From positions 1-32,374 of the IMG/VR virus record IMGVR_UViG_3300025687_000184: 32,374 bases of DNA, one strand, 5' to 3'. A program made the position numbers and the translations under genes. Below, in pieces: positions 1-32,374 of the stretch; within the stretch, counting starts at the first letter, position 1, and each line of letters opens with the position of its first letter. This stretch comes from a virus. The notes under the pieces are model-generated. The model searched no databases. It was given only the letters and a program-made list of their open reading frames with translations, and was not told the origin of the DNA.

Positions 1-561
1 TATATTGTTAGTGTTGGCACTAGCCCTATGGTGTTTTTTACCAATGGCGGTGAGGCGGCTCGATTTAATTCATCTAAAAACTTAGCCTTCCCATCAGGCC
101 AAGGCATCGACTTCTCTGCCACCTCTGGCACTGGCACAAGTGAACTGTTCGATGACTATGAAGAGGGGACGTGGACGCCGACCTATACCACAGACGGAAC
201 AGATTTTGACAGTGTAACTTATGACGGGGTTACATCAGGAAATTATACAAAGATAGGCAACCTTGTAACTTTGGTTGCTCGTATTCGCACTGATGCAATT
301 ACTGTTGGGTCGGCTAGTGGAAATCTTATTGTGGGTGGTTTGCCTTTTACACCTTCTGCAAACTTTGGGTCTGCCTCTGTCTATGCAAGTGCTTTTGCTG
401 CAAGTGAGCCAAGAGTTTTAACGCCTGCGACTGCTGGTATCCTATACCTTTATAAGAGAACCGCTGCTGACGGTGCAGACACACTAATGACGGCTGCTGA
501 AGCAGGGACTGGTACAAACCAAAACACAATGTATTTCACGGTTAGCTACCAAACGGCATGA
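1..561 (+). CDS. Tail fibre protein, C-terminal part (5' truncated by window edge)
   Basis: The frame is open from base 1 (Y-I-V-S-V-G...) and ends in TGA at 559-561, so the gene starts outside the window. The first in-frame ATG, at 28, is probably internal. The segment DDYEEGTWTPTYTTDGTDF near residue 46 is a very common start of the C-terminal beta-rich domain of phage tail fibres. It is followed by a Gly/Thr/Ser-rich beta-sandwich sequence without Cys. The spike gene follows 8 bases downstream, in the same direction. The role is probably receptor binding at the fibre tip. It could be the 3' end of the fibre gene that begins at 31240, but the frames do not join if the window ends are simply abutted. 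Confidence 0.75.
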   Translation, partial: YIVSVGTSPMVFFTNGGEAARFNSSKNLAFPSGQGIDFSATSGTGTSELFDDYEEGTWTPTYTTDGTDFDSVTYDGVTSGNYTKIGNLVTLVARIRTDAITVGSASGNLIVGGLPFTPSANFGSASVYASAFAASEPRVLTPATAGILYLYKRTAADGADTLMTAAEAGTGTNQNTMYFTVSYQTA

Positions 562-7789: not shown

Positions 7790-8256
7790 CAATCTATATC
7801 GGCATAGATCCCGGCTTCTCAGGCGCTATTGCATTCTACGCACCAAAAGAAAACATCGTTTCAGTATACGATATGCCTGTCTATCAAAATGCCAAAGGCA
7901 AGACAGAAATAAATCTTTACGAACTGCATGACATCCTCGCGCCGGAAACGGACGAACCACACATGGCAATCATTGAGCAGGTCGCAGCCATGCGGGGGCA
8001 GGGCGTCACCAGCATGTTTCGATTTGGGCAGTCATACGGTGCCACGCAAATGGCAGTCGCAGCGCACAAGATACCTATGCAATTTGTCACGCCAGCCAAG
8101 TGGAAATCCTACTTAGGCTTGAGCCGTGATAAAGGGGTGTCGCGGAGTTTGGCAAGCCAGAGGTTTCCCAAGCAGGCAGATTTATTTAAGCGCGTGAAAG
8201 ACGATGGACGCGCAGAGGCAGCATTGTTGGCATTATATGGGAAGCTATCGACATGA
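7786..8256 (+). CDS. RuvC-like Holliday junction resolvase / nuclease
   Basis: I chose ATG 7786 because it overlaps the preceding stop as ATGA. A start at 7750 would extend into the RHH gene. The 156-residue product begins MTIYIGIDPGFSGAIAF, the first strand of the RNase H fold with catalytic D8. Further acidic residues fit the family: E64 (AIIEQ) and the DDGRAEA block with D139/D140 and E144. The length matches RuvC (~150-170). In phages these enzymes resolve branched DNA before packaging or act as structure-specific nucleases in recombination. It is translationally coupled to the PD-(D/E)XK nuclease downstream. Confidence 0.85.
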   Translation: MTIYIGIDPGFSGAIAFYAPKENIVSVYDMPVYQNAKGKTEINLYELHDILAPETDEPHMAIIEQVAAMRGQGVTSMFRFGQSYGATQMAVAAHKIPMQFVTPAKWKSYLGLSRDKGVSRSLASQRFPKQADLFKRVKDDGRAEAALLALYGKLST

Positions 8257-8999
8257 ACGGATTTCAAAAGCACAACGTCAAGCACCTGTCAGCATCAAGC
8301 ATTAACCTCTGGACCAATGCGCCTGACGTGTGGGTTGCGCAATACTTGTTTGGAAAGCGTGGACCAATGTCATCAGCCGCGATGCGTGGCATCTGTACAG
8401 AAGATGCAGTCGTATCAGTGCTGACAGGAACGGACGTAGCAGAGGCGCTTAAAGCCGCGCACGATAAGTTTGACGGGTTCTTTCCTATCGGCGATGAAAA
8501 GACAACGAAAGAGCGAGACATGATCCAACCCTGCATGGCATTGGCATTGGATGCGCTGAAAGATTATGGCGAGCCTGAGTTTCCAGAAGAGGGGCAGGAG
8601 AAGATTAGTATTACAGCCAAGACAGACGATTACGAAATCCCTGTGATCGGTTTCTTGGATCTGGTTTTCCCAAAGCAGGGTGTGATCATTGATCTTAAAA
8701 CAACGGGCCGTATGCCAAGCACCATGTCGGCAGAGCATCAGCTACAACGCGCCATTTACCAGAAAGCCAAAGGCAATCAGGCGGTCAAGTTTCTATACGT
8801 GACGCCAAAGAAAACCAGCTTGCTGGAAGACGGTGATCCCAATGAGCTACTCGCTACAGCCAAAAAGCAAATCAGTCGGATGGAAAAGTTCCTACGGGCT
8901 GGCAGCAAAGAGGACATTGCACAAGTCATCCCAGTTAACCCGAACACATTCTACTGGAATGGTGCGGAAGCCATTAGAGAAGAATTATATGGTATCTAA
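8253..8999 (+). CDS. PD-(D/E)XK exonuclease (Cas4/RecB-like)
   Basis: The 248-residue protein has the core signature GFLDLVFPKQGVIIDLKTTG: D136 on one strand and D147-L-K149 on the next. Upstream E50 lies in RGICTEDAV, and Q163 and Y169 lie in EHQLQRAIYQKA. All are expected positions in the PDDEXK_1/Cas4-like family. The N-terminus HLSASSINLWTNAPDVWVAQ is typical of phage members. It probably acts as a 5' or 3' exonuclease in recombination or host-DNA processing. The four Cys of iron-sulfur Cas4 proteins are not apparent. The start overlaps the RuvC-like stop as ATGA. Confidence 0.85.
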   Translation: MNGFQKHNVKHLSASSINLWTNAPDVWVAQYLFGKRGPMSSAAMRGICTEDAVVSVLTGTDVAEALKAAHDKFDGFFPIGDEKTTKERDMIQPCMALALDALKDYGEPEFPEEGQEKISITAKTDDYEIPVIGFLDLVFPKQGVIIDLKTTGRMPSTMSAEHQLQRAIYQKAKGNQAVKFLYVTPKKTSLLEDGDPNELLATAKKQISRMEKFLRAGSKEDIAQVIPVNPNTFYWNGAEAIREELYGI

Positions 9000-9732: not shown

Positions 9733-11880
9733 ATGGAAATGGAAAATAAAATGAGCCTATGCCCCAAGTCCACCGTTATTAAGCAGTTCATAACACAAGT
9801 CACAGAAAATTGGAATACCTGTGGTGATCCGCTGATAGAAATACGTGCGATCGGACAAGCAGGATCAGTCTCAGCCGCAAGATTTACACTCAGCAAAATT
9901 CAGCAGGCCGTTGATCACGCCGAAGCAATGAACAACGCCAAGCAAAATATCTACATGTGCATCAATCCAATTGATCCCATCAAACCAATCCCGGCAGGCC
10001 GAGCCGCCAGAGATGGCGACATCCTCGCAGCCTTCTACTGCTTCGCAGACGCAGACACAGAAGGCGCAATGGAAAACATCCTGTCATTCGCCGGACCAAA
10101 GTTCACAATGTCGGTCAAGACAGGCACAACGCCATTTGCTAGAGGCCATGCATACTGGCAGCTGGAAGAGCCAATCTATAATCTTAACGCATGGCGCAAC
10201 GTGCAGAAGTCAATCGCCGCCAGCCTGCAAACAGACAGCGCAGTCGTAAACCCCAGCAGGATCATGCGCGTGGCAGGCACAGTCTCATGGCCCAATGAAA
10301 AGAAACAGACAAAAGGATACGTGCCGGAGCTAGTCACAATGCGTACGCAATTCAGTACGGATCGTGACCCCGTGCCATTCGAACGCATGATGCGTGCATT
10401 CCCAGAACCCAAGCCGCCGGAACCAACAATACAAATTGATCTGGGCCAGCAGGCAATGGACAGACAACTGGCAGTGCAAAACGTCATGGCAGGCAATGAC
10501 TGGCACGTCAACATGATCCGCCTTGTCGGCTCATACGTCACTAAAGGACTGTCAGACGAAGAGATCCACGCAATCACAGACAGCTTTACGCTGGCAGGCT
10601 ACACAGTAGACGATACGCGCAGAGAAGTGCAGAAAGCCATAGACGGTGCCAGAGACAAAGGCTGGACCCCAGAGCCGGACCCAGCGCAGGAACGCATGGA
10701 ACAGCAGAACGAGCAGCTACAGCACGATGATGACTTCAAGTGGCCTACACCATACGAAACATTCGATGCGCTCACGCTGCCGCGCAGAGAATGGGTGTAC
10801 GGCTATGACTACATCAAGAAGTACATCAGCGTCACAGCCTCGGCAGGCGGGATCGGCAAAACTAGTGCAATCATTGTCGAGGCACTAGCAATCGCAACAG
10901 GCAAGCCGCTGCTCGGCATACAAGTCAAAGAACAAACAAACGTATGGATTATCAATCTCGAAGATCCAATATCCGAAATGCAAATGCGAACCATAGCAGC
11001 CATGCAGCACTACAGCCTGACGCCCGAAGACGTCAAAGGCAAGCTCTTCATGGACGGCGAAGACACCATGCAGATCACCCTTGCGGCAGAAGGCCGAGAC
11101 GGGCTGATCACAAATGACACGCTGCTCAAGTTTATGGTTGACAAAATCAAAGCCAACAACATCGGCGTCATTATCATTGATCCATTTGTGTCAGCGCATC
11201 TGGTCAACGAAAATAACAATGGTAGCATCCAAGCAGTCGTGGCAATGCTGCGCAAAATGGCACGCGATACCAACAGCAGCGTCCAGCTTGTGCATCATAT
11301 CAGAAAAACAAACGGCGATGATGCCACAATCGACAGCGTCAGAGGCGCAGGCTCACTCATCGGAGCAGCCAGAGCAGCCAGAGTGATCAACAGAATAACA
11401 CCAGACGATGCAATGGCGCTGGGCGTAGACGAACACGATGCGCTCGGCATCTTCGCAGTGGACGATGGAAAAGCAAACCTCGCACCGCCAAGCGACAAGC
11501 GTATATACAGACGTATGCTCTCAGTCGAAATTGCAAACGGTGAACACATTGGGGTCGCCACAGAGTTTAAGATGCCGGATCTGTTCGACGGCGTGACAGC
11601 CAAAGACTTGTACAATGTGCAGCGCACAGTCGCAGAGGCAGAGAAAAACGATAAAGCATACCGAGCAGACGTCAGAGCAAAGAACTGGGTCGGCGTGGCG
11701 GTAGCCGAGCAGTTAAAACTCGACCTAGAGAAGCAGAAAGATAAAGCCAAGGCAAAGGCAGTTGCCAAGCAGTGGATCAGTTCCGGCAGTCTCAAGATTG
11801 CAGACGTGCCAGACAAACGAGCAGGCAGAGACGTGCCGTGCGTGATTGTCGGGGAGTGGGTAAAGTGGGAGGAGGTTTGA
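9733..11880 (+). CDS. Primase-helicase fusion (RepB-like primase plus RepA/RecA-like ATPase)
   Basis: This 715-residue protein has two parts. Residues ~1-215 resemble the RepB-like/archaeo-eukaryotic primase fold: FYCFADADTEG (acidic D106/D108), FARGHAYWQLEEP (H139), and the family-like NPSRIMRVAGTVSWPNEKK. Residues ~340-600 are a hexameric RecA/RepA-type helicase: Walker A ASAGGIGKTS (K376), Walker B VIIIDP (D483), VHHIRK (H521/H522) and RGAGSLIGAARAAR. A helical C-terminal tail follows. It should open and prime the phage replication origin, and the repeat cluster immediately downstream is a natural target. GGGGAGGA precedes ATG 9733. No phage DNA polymerase is seen, so host polymerase is probably recruited. 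Confidence 0.85.
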   Translation: MEMENKMSLCPKSTVIKQFITQVTENWNTCGDPLIEIRAIGQAGSVSAARFTLSKIQQAVDHAEAMNNAKQNIYMCINPIDPIKPIPAGRAARDGDILAAFYCFADADTEGAMENILSFAGPKFTMSVKTGTTPFARGHAYWQLEEPIYNLNAWRNVQKSIAASLQTDSAVVNPSRIMRVAGTVSWPNEKKQTKGYVPELVTMRTQFSTDRDPVPFERMMRAFPEPKPPEPTIQIDLGQQAMDRQLAVQNVMAGNDWHVNMIRLVGSYVTKGLSDEEIHAITDSFTLAGYTVDDTRREVQKAIDGARDKGWTPEPDPAQERMEQQNEQLQHDDDFKWPTPYETFDALTLPRREWVYGYDYIKKYISVTASAGGIGKTSAIIVEALAIATGKPLLGIQVKEQTNVWIINLEDPISEMQMRTIAAMQHYSLTPEDVKGKLFMDGEDTMQITLAAEGRDGLITNDTLLKFMVDKIKANNIGVIIIDPFVSAHLVNENNNGSIQAVVAMLRKMARDTNSSVQLVHHIRKTNGDDATIDSVRGAGSLIGAARAARVINRITPDDAMALGVDEHDALGIFAVDDGKANLAPPSDKRIYRRMLSVEIANGEHIGVATEFKMPDLFDGVTAKDLYNVQRTVAEAEKNDKAYRADVRAKNWVGVAVAEQLKLDLEKQKDKAKAKAVAKQWISSGSLKIADVPDKRAGRDVPCVIVGEWVKWEEV

Positions 11881-12050
11881 TGCCTTCCACACTTCCACAC
11901 TTGATTTCCAAAGAGTGTGGATGAAGTGTGGAAGTGTGGAGAAAAAGACCACAAATAGTTCCACCACACTAGTTGTATGTATATGACATACAAGTGTGGT
12001 GGAATGTGGATTAAATGAAACCGTGGCAAATTAAGTGTGGAGAATTGGGT
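11881..12050. other. Candidate replication origin: GTGTGGA repeats, DnaA-box-like sites and hairpins
   Basis: GTGTGGA is present four times on the plus strand (11915, 11926, 11934, 12035) and twice inverted as TCCACAC (11886, 11894). Four 9-mers match the DnaA box TGTGGATAA at 8 of 9 positions: 11916-11924, 11935-11943, 12005-12013 and 12036-12044. Two large inverted repeats are built from these. CTTCCACACTTCCACACTT (11884-11902) faces AAGTGTGGAAGTGTGGA (11924-11940). A longer hairpin pairs TTCCACCACACT (11959-11970) with AGTGTGGTGGAA (11993-12004), with an inner TGTATGT/ACATACA stem. It directly follows the primase-helicase gene. Confidence 0.65.
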
Positions 12051-12623
12051 ATGAAAGAGCAGCGGGGGAAGAGACAAAAGAAATCGGACAGGATCTTGTT
12101 TAGCAATCAAAGCAAGAATGCAATCATGTGCGACTTCGCTATGGGGCCAGTGGACAGGCTGGCAATTGAAATGGATGACAAGTGGGGGATCGACGTGCTG
12201 CCGGAGTTGGTCAGCGTTGAGACAGCGCAGAAGTATGGCAGTGCGGTTGCCAAGATGAATGCAGCAGTTTGGGAAGAAGACGTGGAAGAAACCAAACTGC
12301 GCTGTGAGGTCGTCATTCGAGGGCTAAGGGCAATGGATGCGGAAGCAGAGCGTTTGGGCGCTCAGCGAGCCTCTACGGAAGTGTGGGAGGTGGAAATAGA
12401 TGGCAAGCTGTTTGGCGTTATGAAGGATGGGAGGTCGTGGCGGACGATAAAGGAGCAGAGGCCAGAGCTAGAGTTGTTGACGCTGCGGGAAGTCGGGCTG
12501 GCGTACCAAGCGTTTCAAGAAAGTAGAGCAGGAGAATTTGAACGGGCAGTGAAGCAGTCGTTCAAGGGCGCAGAAATTATCGACATCAAGGCGAAAGTGT
12601 TTGATGATCCGATACCGTTCTGA
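12051..12623 (+). CDS. Unknown replication-module protein with SSB-type C-terminal tip
   Basis: I chose ATG 12051 because GGAG lies 8 bases before it. The longer in-frame start at 12015 would place coding sequence over an origin repeat. The 190-residue product is basic at the N-terminus (MKEQRGKRQKKSDR), has a mixed helical middle, and ends KAKVFDDPIPF. The ending D-D-P-I-P-F is essentially the conserved tip (DDDIPF) by which SSB recruits helicases, primase and exonucleases. The body (VEIDGKLFGVMKDGRSWRTI) has some beta-strand pattern but is not a recognisable SSB OB fold. It may be a divergent SSB or a mimic that competes for SSB partners. Confidence 0.6.
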   Translation: MKEQRGKRQKKSDRILFSNQSKNAIMCDFAMGPVDRLAIEMDDKWGIDVLPELVSVETAQKYGSAVAKMNAAVWEEDVEETKLRCEVVIRGLRAMDAEAERLGAQRASTEVWEVEIDGKLFGVMKDGRSWRTIKEQRPELELLTLREVGLAYQAFQESRAGEFERAVKQSFKGAEIIDIKAKVFDDPIPF

Positions 12624-12740: not shown

Positions 12741-13202
12741 ATGGGCAAAAGCAGAACAGTCAGCATAGCCATCATGGAAAAGATTGTTGACCGCTTAGCA
12801 CACGGCGAAACATTAGTTGACATTACCAAAGACGAGAAGATGCCAACATACCGGGCAGTGACAAGAGCAGTCGCTGGGGATGATGAGATGTGGGAGTTGT
12901 ATCGCAAGGGGCGTATCTTGCAGGCAGAGTATTATGCAGATCGTTTGAATGGATTGGCGATGGAGCCGTTGCCAAAAGGTTTAGATGTCCGCGAGCTAAA
13001 CGCAGAGGTCAACAGACGCAGACTTGAGATAGATACTTTGAAGTGGACCACAGCACGCAACCAGCCATTCGGCATTCGCGATAAGAAAGAGGATCAACCG
13101 CAAGCGCAAACCTTCACGATCAGTTGGGCTGGCAATGATGTTGAGGTAACGGCAACGCCGGAGAAGCAGCAGGAAGAGAAGCAGCATGTTGTTAAGCATT
13201 AG
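12741..13202 (+). CDS. terS: Terminase small subunit
   Basis: The 153-residue protein starts MGKSRTVSIAIMEKIVDRLA. Its N-terminal helix-turn-helix-like region contains LVDITKDEKMPTYRAVTRAV. A central helical part (ILQAEYYADRLNGLAMEPLP, RRLEIDTLKWTTARNQP) has the family motif KWTTARNQPFG near residue 102. The length and motifs fit Sf6-gp1-like small terminases, which bind the pac or cos site and load the large subunit. The C-terminal tail is Glu/Gln/Lys-rich. GAGGTGAGAG precedes the ATG. It is separated from the replication module by an intrinsic terminator, so it probably heads a new transcript. Confidence 0.85.
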   Translation: MGKSRTVSIAIMEKIVDRLAHGETLVDITKDEKMPTYRAVTRAVAGDDEMWELYRKGRILQAEYYADRLNGLAMEPLPKGLDVRELNAEVNRRRLEIDTLKWTTARNQPFGIRDKKEDQPQAQTFTISWAGNDVEVTATPEKQQEEKQHVVKH

Positions 13203-13503: not shown

Positions 13504-13677
13504 GTGACTGACACTGGCCTCTTCAACCATATCACACAACTGCGCCACCTTGTCGTCAACGCAGAAAGCGCCACAGCCCAATATGAAGCAGCGGTCTTGC
13601 TTTTAGATTTATATGAAACCATACTAGAGCAGAACGGGCTGCTTATATTTTCAAATGGAGGGTATACCAAGCATTGA
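13504..13677 (+). CDS. Small helical hypothetical protein before the large terminase
   Basis: I chose GTG 13504 with GGAG 8 bases upstream. A longer ORF from 13426 would begin with an implausible Pro-rich stretch that reflects a C-rich tract. The 57-residue product (starting MTDTGLFNHITQLRHLVV) is helical, with AESATAQYEAAVLLLDLYET in the middle and NGGYTKH at the end. Its TGA overlaps the TTG start of the large terminase. The function is unknown. The position suggests co-translation with terL, perhaps as a packaging accessory. Confidence 0.5.
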   Translation: MTDTGLFNHITQLRHLVVNAESATAQYEAAVLLLDLYETILEQNGLLIFSNGGYTKH

Positions 13678-30900: not shown

Positions 30901-31243
30901 AGGTGGCTGGCCTTTAACCAATCCAACAAGCATGGGCGGCGTGCAACTTGCGTTTGGCGCACAGTCTGATCTTGTCAATATTGCTAAAAATGAGATAGAA
31001 ATAAGGCAAGCGCGGATTGGGCGTGTGACATTTAAAGAAGCGTTGGAAGCAATGACAACGACAGTGACGACACCGCTTGGACGCGCGTATGATCTTGCTA
31101 GTGACAAAGATCGTGTGACAATGATAAAAGCGTTGAATAAGCAATATATTGATGCAGGATTTCAGGTCTTACTTGAAATGCCAAGATATGCTAATTTAGC
31201 GCAAGCATACGCTGACAAGCAGCGAGTGAAGGAAGAGCAATGA
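27983..31243 (+). CDS. Large internal virion / ejection protein, T7 gp16-like
   Basis: The 1086-residue protein starts MAIDPAELARQQEQRQRIEV after GGAG, 11 bases inside the previous gene. The first ~370 residues are Ala/Glu/Gln-rich and helical. The middle has LSEAYLSGLLSNPATQVKNV with hydrophobic segments nearby (GTGVFMAYQLPAEMIAGMYG). Later comes PVGRMILPFATAPTNSFLRS, typical of large polyvalent ejection proteins, then DYAIQGSITGGMPSDPKVRD. In the family, this protein spans the inner membrane and helps pull DNA into the cell. No lytic transglycosylase motif like that of T7 gp16 is apparent. The stop overlaps the fibre start as ATGA. Confidence 0.75.
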   Translation: MAIDPAELARQQEQRQRIEVAGAPTEFAKGPEAGVQLAGGGTKALLEVLNKLKPSVTPVLPYEADAAIPPGVSPESVVQPSRVPTPQEIGLVPDPGKYSERRTQEILAPEVLSPEGVEEFQRRGFKAQEPVEEQTIQNAAEALDEQAAEAELLVGDVKKQARDALTAETRGFKPETGVADEKLADQMADQLLMRRGQIKTLEDGGDFNFDYMTTTDDVKETITALSEVYRDQTKAVKRGYISNEVTADKAAKIIADEVGLTRTLLKRKIGDGTLSAEMMLASRELLVRSAEKLTGLATKIKDGTATATDRLAFRRQMAIHAGIQLQVKGAQTEAARTLQSFQIKVGGELSAVEQAREAQRLLQETGGADLVDAMADNLLKVQKENGQRGINEFARGGWRAKTRQMLSEAYLSGLLSNPATQVKNVVGTGVFMAYQLPAEMIAGMYGSVIRGGRGALKLPISDDQVYVDDAMLRFKGWMDSYKDGLKAASIAWRTEVPAAEASRLDVENYTSIAGESNAWTSKAISEFGKRVRIPFRLLLAADEYFKTIGQRGELYVQANKAYKKALRNGKTVQEAQDEAGMILLDPRSVSEELDYKAKFDTLQSDLGQFGKFTGMAQRFDIAGIPVGRMILPFATAPTNSFLRSAEFMGINPKIYSDIVGKNGSRAQQMAMGRLTVGGATMAVVADYAIQGSITGGMPSDPKVRDALPPGWQPYSFVFRGEGFPEDMPLYDVYGRPNGPLEYVSYAGYEPVGAVIAVTADTVQRMHRTRDPEVRNNLAAAAVGSVIDYYKELPMLQGLSDVAFALEYNDPMRFFRSPAEAATPIGLPNPVSSLQRAGGRMVDPRVMRPRGDIEYYTMADIEAKNEDGTYVFAKPDGTPDYNMVGLPKGDFGSSIISMMSDLSAYQSKDSVFRDEYDRNAPAYDTLGNEIGANDVSLATNPGLAIFNNLSGIRIRQGEEVPDYQAELMRLASMTGGWPLTNPTSMGGVQLAFGAQSDLVNIAKNEIEIRQARIGRVTFKEALEAMTTTVTTPLGRAYDLASDKDRVTMIKALNKQYIDAGFQVLLEMPRYANLAQAYADKQRVKEEQ

Positions 31244-32374
31244 CAGTAAGCACAAGCACAAGTTTTGTAAGCTACGCGGGGAATGGCTCGCTCACTACCT
31301 TTGCTTACACGTTTAAAATATTCCAAGACAGCGACTTGCTTGTCACTTTGGTCAACGATGCATCAGGCGTCGAAACAACTCAGGTGCTAACAACCAACTA
31401 CACTGTGACAGGCGCAGGCACGGCTGGTGGAGGTAATGTTGTGTTTACGGCTGCGCCAGCATCTGGCGTAACTATAAAGATACGCCGCGTGCTGCCAGTA
31501 ACGCAGGAAACAGATTACGTTGCAAACGATCCATTCCCTGCGGAAGCGCATGAGGATGCGTTGGATAAGCTGACTATGCTGGTGCAACAGGAAGCATCCA
31601 ACAGTGATCTGGCAATCTCATTTCCAGAAGGTGACGTTGGGGCAGGCTTGAATAATATTGTACCGTCTGCGGTTGATCGTGCGGATAAATTGCTAAAGTT
31701 TGACACCGAGGGTAATGTTGAAGCAGTTGCAGCAGCAGACGTTTTAACAGGCTCTGTGCTTGGCGCTAACTACACAAAGGCAAGCCATACTGGTAATGGC
31801 TCAATAACAGCTTATAGCACTGTGTCTGCGGCTGGATCAAAGAACAATATCCAAGTCTACATTGATGGTGTTTACCAAAACAAAGACACGTTCTCAATCA
31901 GTGGGACAACGCTGACATTCACAGAAGCCCCGCCCTTAAACGCTGCGATTGAGTTCATTGTGGGTAATGCAATTACTTCACTAACAACTGACCCTGATGT
32001 TGTGACCTACAACCAAGGCGGCACAGGCGCACAGGATCGTACACTGACATCTCGCTTGCAGGACTTTGTATCGGTCAAAGACTTTGGTGCTGTCGGTGAT
32101 GGTGTGACGGATAACACTGCAGTGTTTCAAGCTGCTATTGACAGTCTTGGCGCAAATGGTGGAACCGTGCGAGTTACTGGCGGCTCTCAAAACCAATACT
32201 TGTTTACAACAAAATCAGGCCCATCAAATCCAACAATCTCTATCCCTTCTAATGTTCACATTGCAATGGATGATGATGTTGTGCTTCTCACTCAGGGCGG
32301 TGTGGCTTCTCAAGTCAATGGTTACAATCAGTCTGGGTCTACTAGCAAGGCGCTTTTTGTAAACTCAACGCCAG
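31240..32374 (+). CDS. Tail fibre, N-terminal part (3' truncated by window edge)
   Basis: ATG 31240 overlaps the previous TGA as ATGA, and the frame is open to the end of the window (378 residues). Residues 1-150 match the T7 gp17-like tail-attachment domain: SFVSYAGNGSLTTFAYTFKI, then IRRVLPVTQETDYVANDPFP and AEAHEDALDKLTMLVQQ. Residues ~180-245 form a second, related beta module (TGNGSITAYSTVSAAGSKNN, VYIDGVYQNKDTFSISGTTL). From ~280, VKDFGAVGDGVTDNTAVFQA begins a pectate-lyase-like beta-helix. It should be the receptor-binding fibre or spike attached to the nozzle. Confidence 0.9.
   Translation, partial: MTVSTSTSFVSYAGNGSLTTFAYTFKIFQDSDLLVTLVNDASGVETTQVLTTNYTVTGAGTAGGGNVVFTAAPASGVTIKIRRVLPVTQETDYVANDPFPAEAHEDALDKLTMLVQQEASNSDLAISFPEGDVGAGLNNIVPSAVDRADKLLKFDTEGNVEAVAAADVLTGSVLGANYTKASHTGNGSITAYSTVSAAGSKNNIQVYIDGVYQNKDTFSISGTTLTFTEAPPLNAAIEFIVGNAITSLTTDPDVVTYNQGGTGAQDRTLTSRLQDFVSVKDFGAVGDGVTDNTAVFQAAIDSLGANGGTVRVTGGSQNQYLFTTKSGPSNPTISIPSNVHIAMDDDVVLLTQGGVASQVNGYNQSGSTSKALFVNSTP

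Follow-up and report, generated by a model that had tools for sequence, protein, structure and literature searches.

The repeat array lying between the primase-helicase gene and the gene that starts at 12051 is probably a phage replication origin, whose repeated words would be bound by the C-terminal domain, predicted to be a winged helix, of the primase-helicase encoded immediately upstream. The window, namely the whole stretch of 32,374 nucleotides analysed here, is the IMG/VR virus record IMGVR_UViG_3300025687_000184 and derives from a podovirus-like phage. Support for this reading comes from the array itself, the layout it keeps among relatives, the concerted changes of its words, the link between word and domain, natural swaps of domain plus array and the predicted fold of the domain.

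Among the genes of the window are those for a head-tail connector, the major head protein, tail tubular proteins, internal virion proteins, lysis and terminase, with the small subunit gene at 12741 and the large subunit gene at 13674; a PD-(D/E)XK nuclease and a Holliday junction resolvase are encoded as well. Neither a DNA polymerase nor an RNA polymerase of the phage was recognised in the window proteins scanned, so that the contrast originally drawn with the replication scheme of T7 is a fair one. Since reading frames are open at both ends of the window (1-561 and 31240-32373), and the 3' terminal frame resembles a tail-spike gene, as does that at 569-1783, the record may represent a nearly complete genome in circularly permuted form.

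The protein encoded just before the array matches Pfam AAA_25 and the PHROG primase/helicase families; its helicase region matches the profile of RSF1010 RepA (1g8y, E 3e-8) and its primase region, weakly, the PrimPol AEP domain 6zp9 (E 0.003). A single polypeptide thus contains both the primase and the RepA-type helicase, in contrast to the RepB-like primase plus RepA-like helicase of the original prediction. No RepC-like protein turned up in family scans of the window proteins, and the iteron reader appears to be fused to the helicase. The protein encoded just after the array has homologues in Roseobacter siphophages and in a Manatee Spring myophage. Its C-terminus, DDPIPF, resembles an SSB tail, the IPF ending being kept in podophage and myophage homologues and not in those of CRP siphophages; the CRP SSB-like protein ends in DDDIPW or DDALPF, and g9062 of the window in ADAEF.

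Within the array, GTGTGGA occurs in the six exact copies reported earlier (four direct, two inverted), which fall within 156 bases (11886-12041) and are the only ones in the window. Their total is ordinary, as 3.1 copies are expected and 12 of 100 shuffles reach six, but their clustering is unusual, with about 0.015 copies expected per 156 nt in a post hoc estimate for which both the word and the interval were picked from the data. The word AGTGTGG occurs eight times between 11887 and 12040. Two long inverted repeats are present as originally described, the first with 20-nt arms that are 95% complementary and the second with 15-nt arms (table 1), and the 170 bases of the array, folded as single-stranded DNA, give z = -9.7 against shuffles. 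Across relatives, the central hairpin has double compensatory changes at 7 of 12 consensus pairs. The cumulative GC-skew minimum of the whole window, originally proposed as a check, is not at the array; in most podovirus relatives the skew increases on the right side of the array without a clean change of sign, and in siphophages it does little.

Table 1. Features of the candidate origin and its flanking genes (positions in the window)
Feature	Position	Strand	Basis
Initiator gene, 715 aa: N-terminal AEP-type primase, RepA-type helicase (residues about 340-610), C-terminal predicted winged helix	9733..11880	+	Pfam, PHROG, profile matches
C-terminal domain, residues 621-715, predicted winged helix and putative iteron reader; key residues R648, S686, A697	11593..11877	+	
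Iteron array, candidate replication origin	11881..12050	.	Repeats, inverted repeats, clustering, single-strand DNA folding
GTGTGGA, exact copies	11886, 11894 (-); 11915, 11926, 11934, 12035 (+)		Exact match
Inverted AGTGTGG, two copies (11887-11893, 11895-11901); inverted repeat 1, left arm	11886..11905	-	
Three direct words (11914-11920, 11925-11931, 11933-11939); contains right arm (11921-11940) of inverted repeat 1	11914..11940	+	
Central hairpin (inverted repeat 2, arms 11959-11973/11990-12004); word in each arm (11964-11970 -, 11993-11999 +), AT-rich inner stem	11959..12004	.	
Degenerate word TGTGGATTA	12005..12013	+	
Last word; appears to overlap the likely ribosome-binding site (GGAG) of the 12051 gene	12034..12040	+	
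Protein of 190 aa, no known family; nearest annotated neighbour of the array in podophage, siphophage and myophage relatives	12051..12623	+	

Scanning IMG/VR with both array-flanking proteins yielded about 80 loci. They come from metagenomes and include some redundancy, near-identical rows having been reduced only for the analysis of entropy-matched columns, and these relatives have the same array layout in the same place. The conserved plan opens with a pair of inverted words and continues with two or three direct ones, a hairpin that has one word per arm and two to four further direct words. The word differs between phages, with nearly every copy changing in concert. Words in relatives include AAGTGTGGA, AACTGTGGA, AGGTGAGGA and AAGGTGTGG and, further out, GTGCGGA, TTTGTAGT, TTTATACA, TGTAGAAA, GTGTAAAA, CGGTAGACA, GTGTTCA, GTCGGAAAC and GGGACA, so that one layout is found with at least a dozen different words, while mixed arrays are few (L016, L023, L063 and L068). 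A second array layout (L013, L055 and L091) likewise exists in two word versions.

Among cultured phages with more distant RepA-type helicases, other repeat words accompanied by a hairpin lie near the helicase in Rhodoferax phage P26218 (about 2815-3010 of L262) and in Manatee Spring podovirus MW202557 (about 4898-5110 of L264); arrays were not found in BUCT618 or RHph_X2_26. A search of bacterial genomes with two peptide patterns found no relatives, and four scans with array DNA, considered for satellites that have the array but lack a replication gene, returned almost only contigs of this phage family. Of the 29 stretches in the final scan, one (L303) is a chance match, in which a GTGAGG pattern lies at two repeated gene starts (about 8074-8348), and no homologue of the window proteins was found on this 40-kb contig.

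Cargo genes are often inserted at the junction between helicase and array (L017, L020, L033, L035, L037, L064 and others); judged by eye from the DNA, these are small genes, among them PAPS-reductase-like and methyltransferase-like ones. In CRP-831, a PAPS reductase is annotated near the array. In the inserted loci that were checked individually the array mostly lies beyond the insert, and in L055, L091 and L013 the words start right after the helicase. In L194 (3137-4001) the array adjoins the helicase, and a gene that is nuclease-like by eye only separates it from the homologue of the 12051 gene; hence the array is tied to neither of its flanking genes.

Which protein, then, would read the word? 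The word class changes 3 times on the tree of the C-terminal domain of the primase-helicase, against 12 times on that of its N-terminus, 10 for the helicase, 11 for the 12051 protein, 10 for g9062 and 9 for g8253. When the word is predicted from the nearest neighbour at no more than 92% identity, the domain is correct in 76 of 79 cases, compared with 49/79 for the helicase, 53/77 for the 12051 protein and 24/59 for g9062. The domain also predicts the word class in 22 of the 23 loci that have 0.4-2.2 kb of extra DNA between the helicase gene and g12 (an insert or a lengthened interval, mostly one inserted gene), and in entropy-matched columns it is 1.6-3 times more informative on the word. One exception is L023, which is of the A697 type but has a mixed array.

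The strongest single case for the domain as reader is the comparison between the window and L018. Nucleotide identity is about 85-90% just before the domain, 57-70% over domain plus array and about 90% after; at the protein level, the flanking genes are 95-98% identical, helicase residues 531-620 98%, residues 621-715 57% and the 12051 protein 95%, and the words differ. The cultured pair CRP-823 and CRP-831 presents the same pattern, with about 95% identity before, 54-80% over domain plus array and about 94% after. Judging from these alignments, the two natural swaps exchanged only the C-terminal domain plus the array, and related phages have most likely traded tail and repeats together repeatedly. 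This evidence needs to be read with the physical closeness of word and domain in mind, for which some co-inheritance is expected; recognition is argued because neither the 12051 gene, which is equally near, nor the helicase segment immediately preceding the domain follows the word. We infer that residues 621-715 of the primase-helicase are the reader of the word. Other candidates were rejected: the 12051 protein, given its identity where the word differs and its 11 label changes, as well as g9062 and g8253, which are 96-98% identical in the pair formed by the window and L018, where the words differ.

At the level of sequence, residues 697 and 648 of the protein predict the word, and distant contigs obey the rule. 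Residue 697, in the predicted wing, is A, S or H with NTGTGG, Q with GTGAGG (19/19), K with GGTGTGG (13/14) and N with GTGCGG, the last entry being derived from L193 and L194 themselves. Residue 648 is Q in all 34 arrays having G at the first word position, while R occurs with arrays having C or mixtures, plus three cases with G. Twelve of 14 further loci have a countable array of the class predicted from residue 697 (L143 with three copies only); the other two are L194, with one copy in the stretch tested, and L247, with no word in the stretch tested. An independent check of the rule was provided by scans with array DNA alone, which found distant contigs: L293 and L297 (helicase 54-55% identical, word GTGAGG) have Q648, V686 and Q697, L302 (helicase 55%, word GTGAGG) is a member of the same group, and L270 (helicase 37%, word CTGTGG) has R648 as well as, according to the alignment, A686 and an S near 697.

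The C-terminal segment of about 95 residues is predicted to be a winged helix. AlphaFold2 models it as helix-helix-helix-strand-strand, with pLDDT of about 75-90 over most of the domain (most blocks 80-90) in a full-length model that is poor elsewhere, and a mean of 77 when the domain is modelled alone. VIA-align returns mostly winged-helix DNA-binding domains for this model, with Z up to 7.5, a Z of about 7 being the level that common folds usually give; Foldseek on the domain model found nothing significant (best E 0.07). Pfam matches to the domain (fn3, CBM) were under their cut-offs and taken as noise.

The original prediction was of a plasmid-style origin with iterons and DnaA boxes. Its iteron-type origin beside a primase-helicase is well supported, but an origin fired by host DnaA bound to near-DnaA boxes is extremely unlikely: four sites (11916, 11935, 12005 and 12036, as reported earlier) do match TGTGGATAA at eight of nine positions, yet exact TTWTNCACA, with 4 occurrences expected by chance, is absent from the window, and relatives have in the conserved layout words that do not resemble a DnaA box, for example GTGAGGA, TTTGTAGT and TTTATACA. 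That the array is instead a packaging site (pac or cos) recognised by the terminase would fit its position, as the small terminase gene lies about 0.7 kb further downstream. This too is very improbable, considering that the small terminase of G021, a phage with the word GTGAGG, is 99% identical to that of the window with GTGTGG, and that the arrays of CRP siphophages have no annotated terminase nearby.

A further alternative is that the C-terminal domain of the primase-helicase binds the array as an operator and so controls how the 12051 gene and the packaging genes are transcribed, while replication starts elsewhere. The apparent overlap of the last word with the likely ribosome-binding site of the 12051 gene would suit such a role, as would the fact that the array mostly stays beside this gene when others are inserted upstream; in L194, however, where the array comes after the helicase, another gene lies between it and the 12051 homologue. 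Moreover, a search for promoters of the sigma-70-like type, the only one covered, found none at the array, nor was there any convincing terminator, at least eight sites and two long hairpins are many for an operator, and the putative reader domain is fused to a replicative helicase. We consider control of transcription unlikely.

Returning to the array as a replication origin, we infer physical binding of the words, start of replication at this site, melting, hairpin use and priming along the following lines. The words of 7-9 bp would be binding sites for the winged helix of the initiator encoded just upstream, several copies of which would gather on the words of both orientations; its RepA-type helicase domain would open the DNA, the two inverted repeats could extrude as hairpins, and the fused primase domain would lay primers on the exposed strand. 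These primers would be extended by the host replisome, which is proposed because no phage DNA polymerase was found.

By analogy, the best-supported mechanism would operate on the same principle as Rep of staphylococcal pathogenicity islands (SaPI), the alpha protein of phage P4 and ORF904 of pRN1 (PMC7581432, PMC4234260), executed with the helicase family of RSF1010. In SaPI Rep and SCCmec Cch2, the C-terminal domain reads short iterons directly downstream of its own gene (PMC7581432). The window likewise has an initiator helicase, multiple short repeats just 3' of its gene and a probable C-terminal reader, but the helicases of Rep and Cch2 are of DUF927 or D5 type, whereas that of the window is of RSF1010 RepA/RecA-like type. 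P4 alpha combines primase, helicase and a winged-helix domain binding origin repeats in one protein (PMC4234260), as the window protein is predicted to do, with a Toprim primase in place of the AEP primase and RepA-type helicase found here. A C-terminal winged helix setting specificity, as in these initiators, is indicated in the window by covariation, swaps and predicted fold; its helicase is not of the SF3, D5 or DUF927 type, being an AAA_25 protein homologous to RSF1010 RepA. The initiator would thus work like SaPI Rep and P4 alpha without being a member of those helicase families.

The IncQ plasmid RSF1010 has three separate proteins, RepA, RepB' and RepC, the last being the iteron reader (PMC4234260). 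It shares with the window the homologous RepA-type hexameric helicase, iterons and hairpins at the known or candidate origin and, going by the weak PrimPol match, a primase without a polymerase of its own, but the functions distributed over three proteins in RSF1010 are apparently fused in one polypeptide here. In pRN1, a stem-loop directly downstream of ORF904 is needed for replication (PMC4234260); both ORF904 and the BIP-1 phage replicon resemble the window in having a single protein that combines an AEP primase, a helicase and a winged helix at its C-terminus, and a stem-loop immediately after its gene, and differ in having an SF3 helicase and no iterons identified. Finally, the initiator of the V. 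cholerae satellite PLE has a DNA-binding domain that covaries with the origin and has been swapped repeatedly, an origin-directed nuclease of phage ICP1 being the likely driver (PMC8263062). The domain in PLE RepA thus covaries and swaps with its origin as in the window; PLE, though, is a satellite with a RepA_N initiator, an N-terminal DNA-binding domain and few origin types, whereas lytic-type phages with at least a dozen words are involved here.

In evolutionary terms, it is conceivable, if tentative, that the origin word is a fast-changing replication type by which phages escape satellites, origin-directed nucleases or competing co-infecting phages, either through exchange of winged-helix tail and array as a cassette or through a shift of one reader residue together with nearly every copy of the word. 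The swaps themselves suggest that origin specificity is traded as a module between lytic-type phages, as is known for PLE (PMC8263062). The array and the primase-helicase provide a concrete candidate origin and initiator for widespread, little-studied aquatic tailed phages without a recognised DNA polymerase gene. If the reading of the word as a replication type is true, a natural protein-DNA recognition code is spread across many phages. The many words paired with their putative reader domains constitute a natural experiment for deriving and testing the recognition code of the winged helix.
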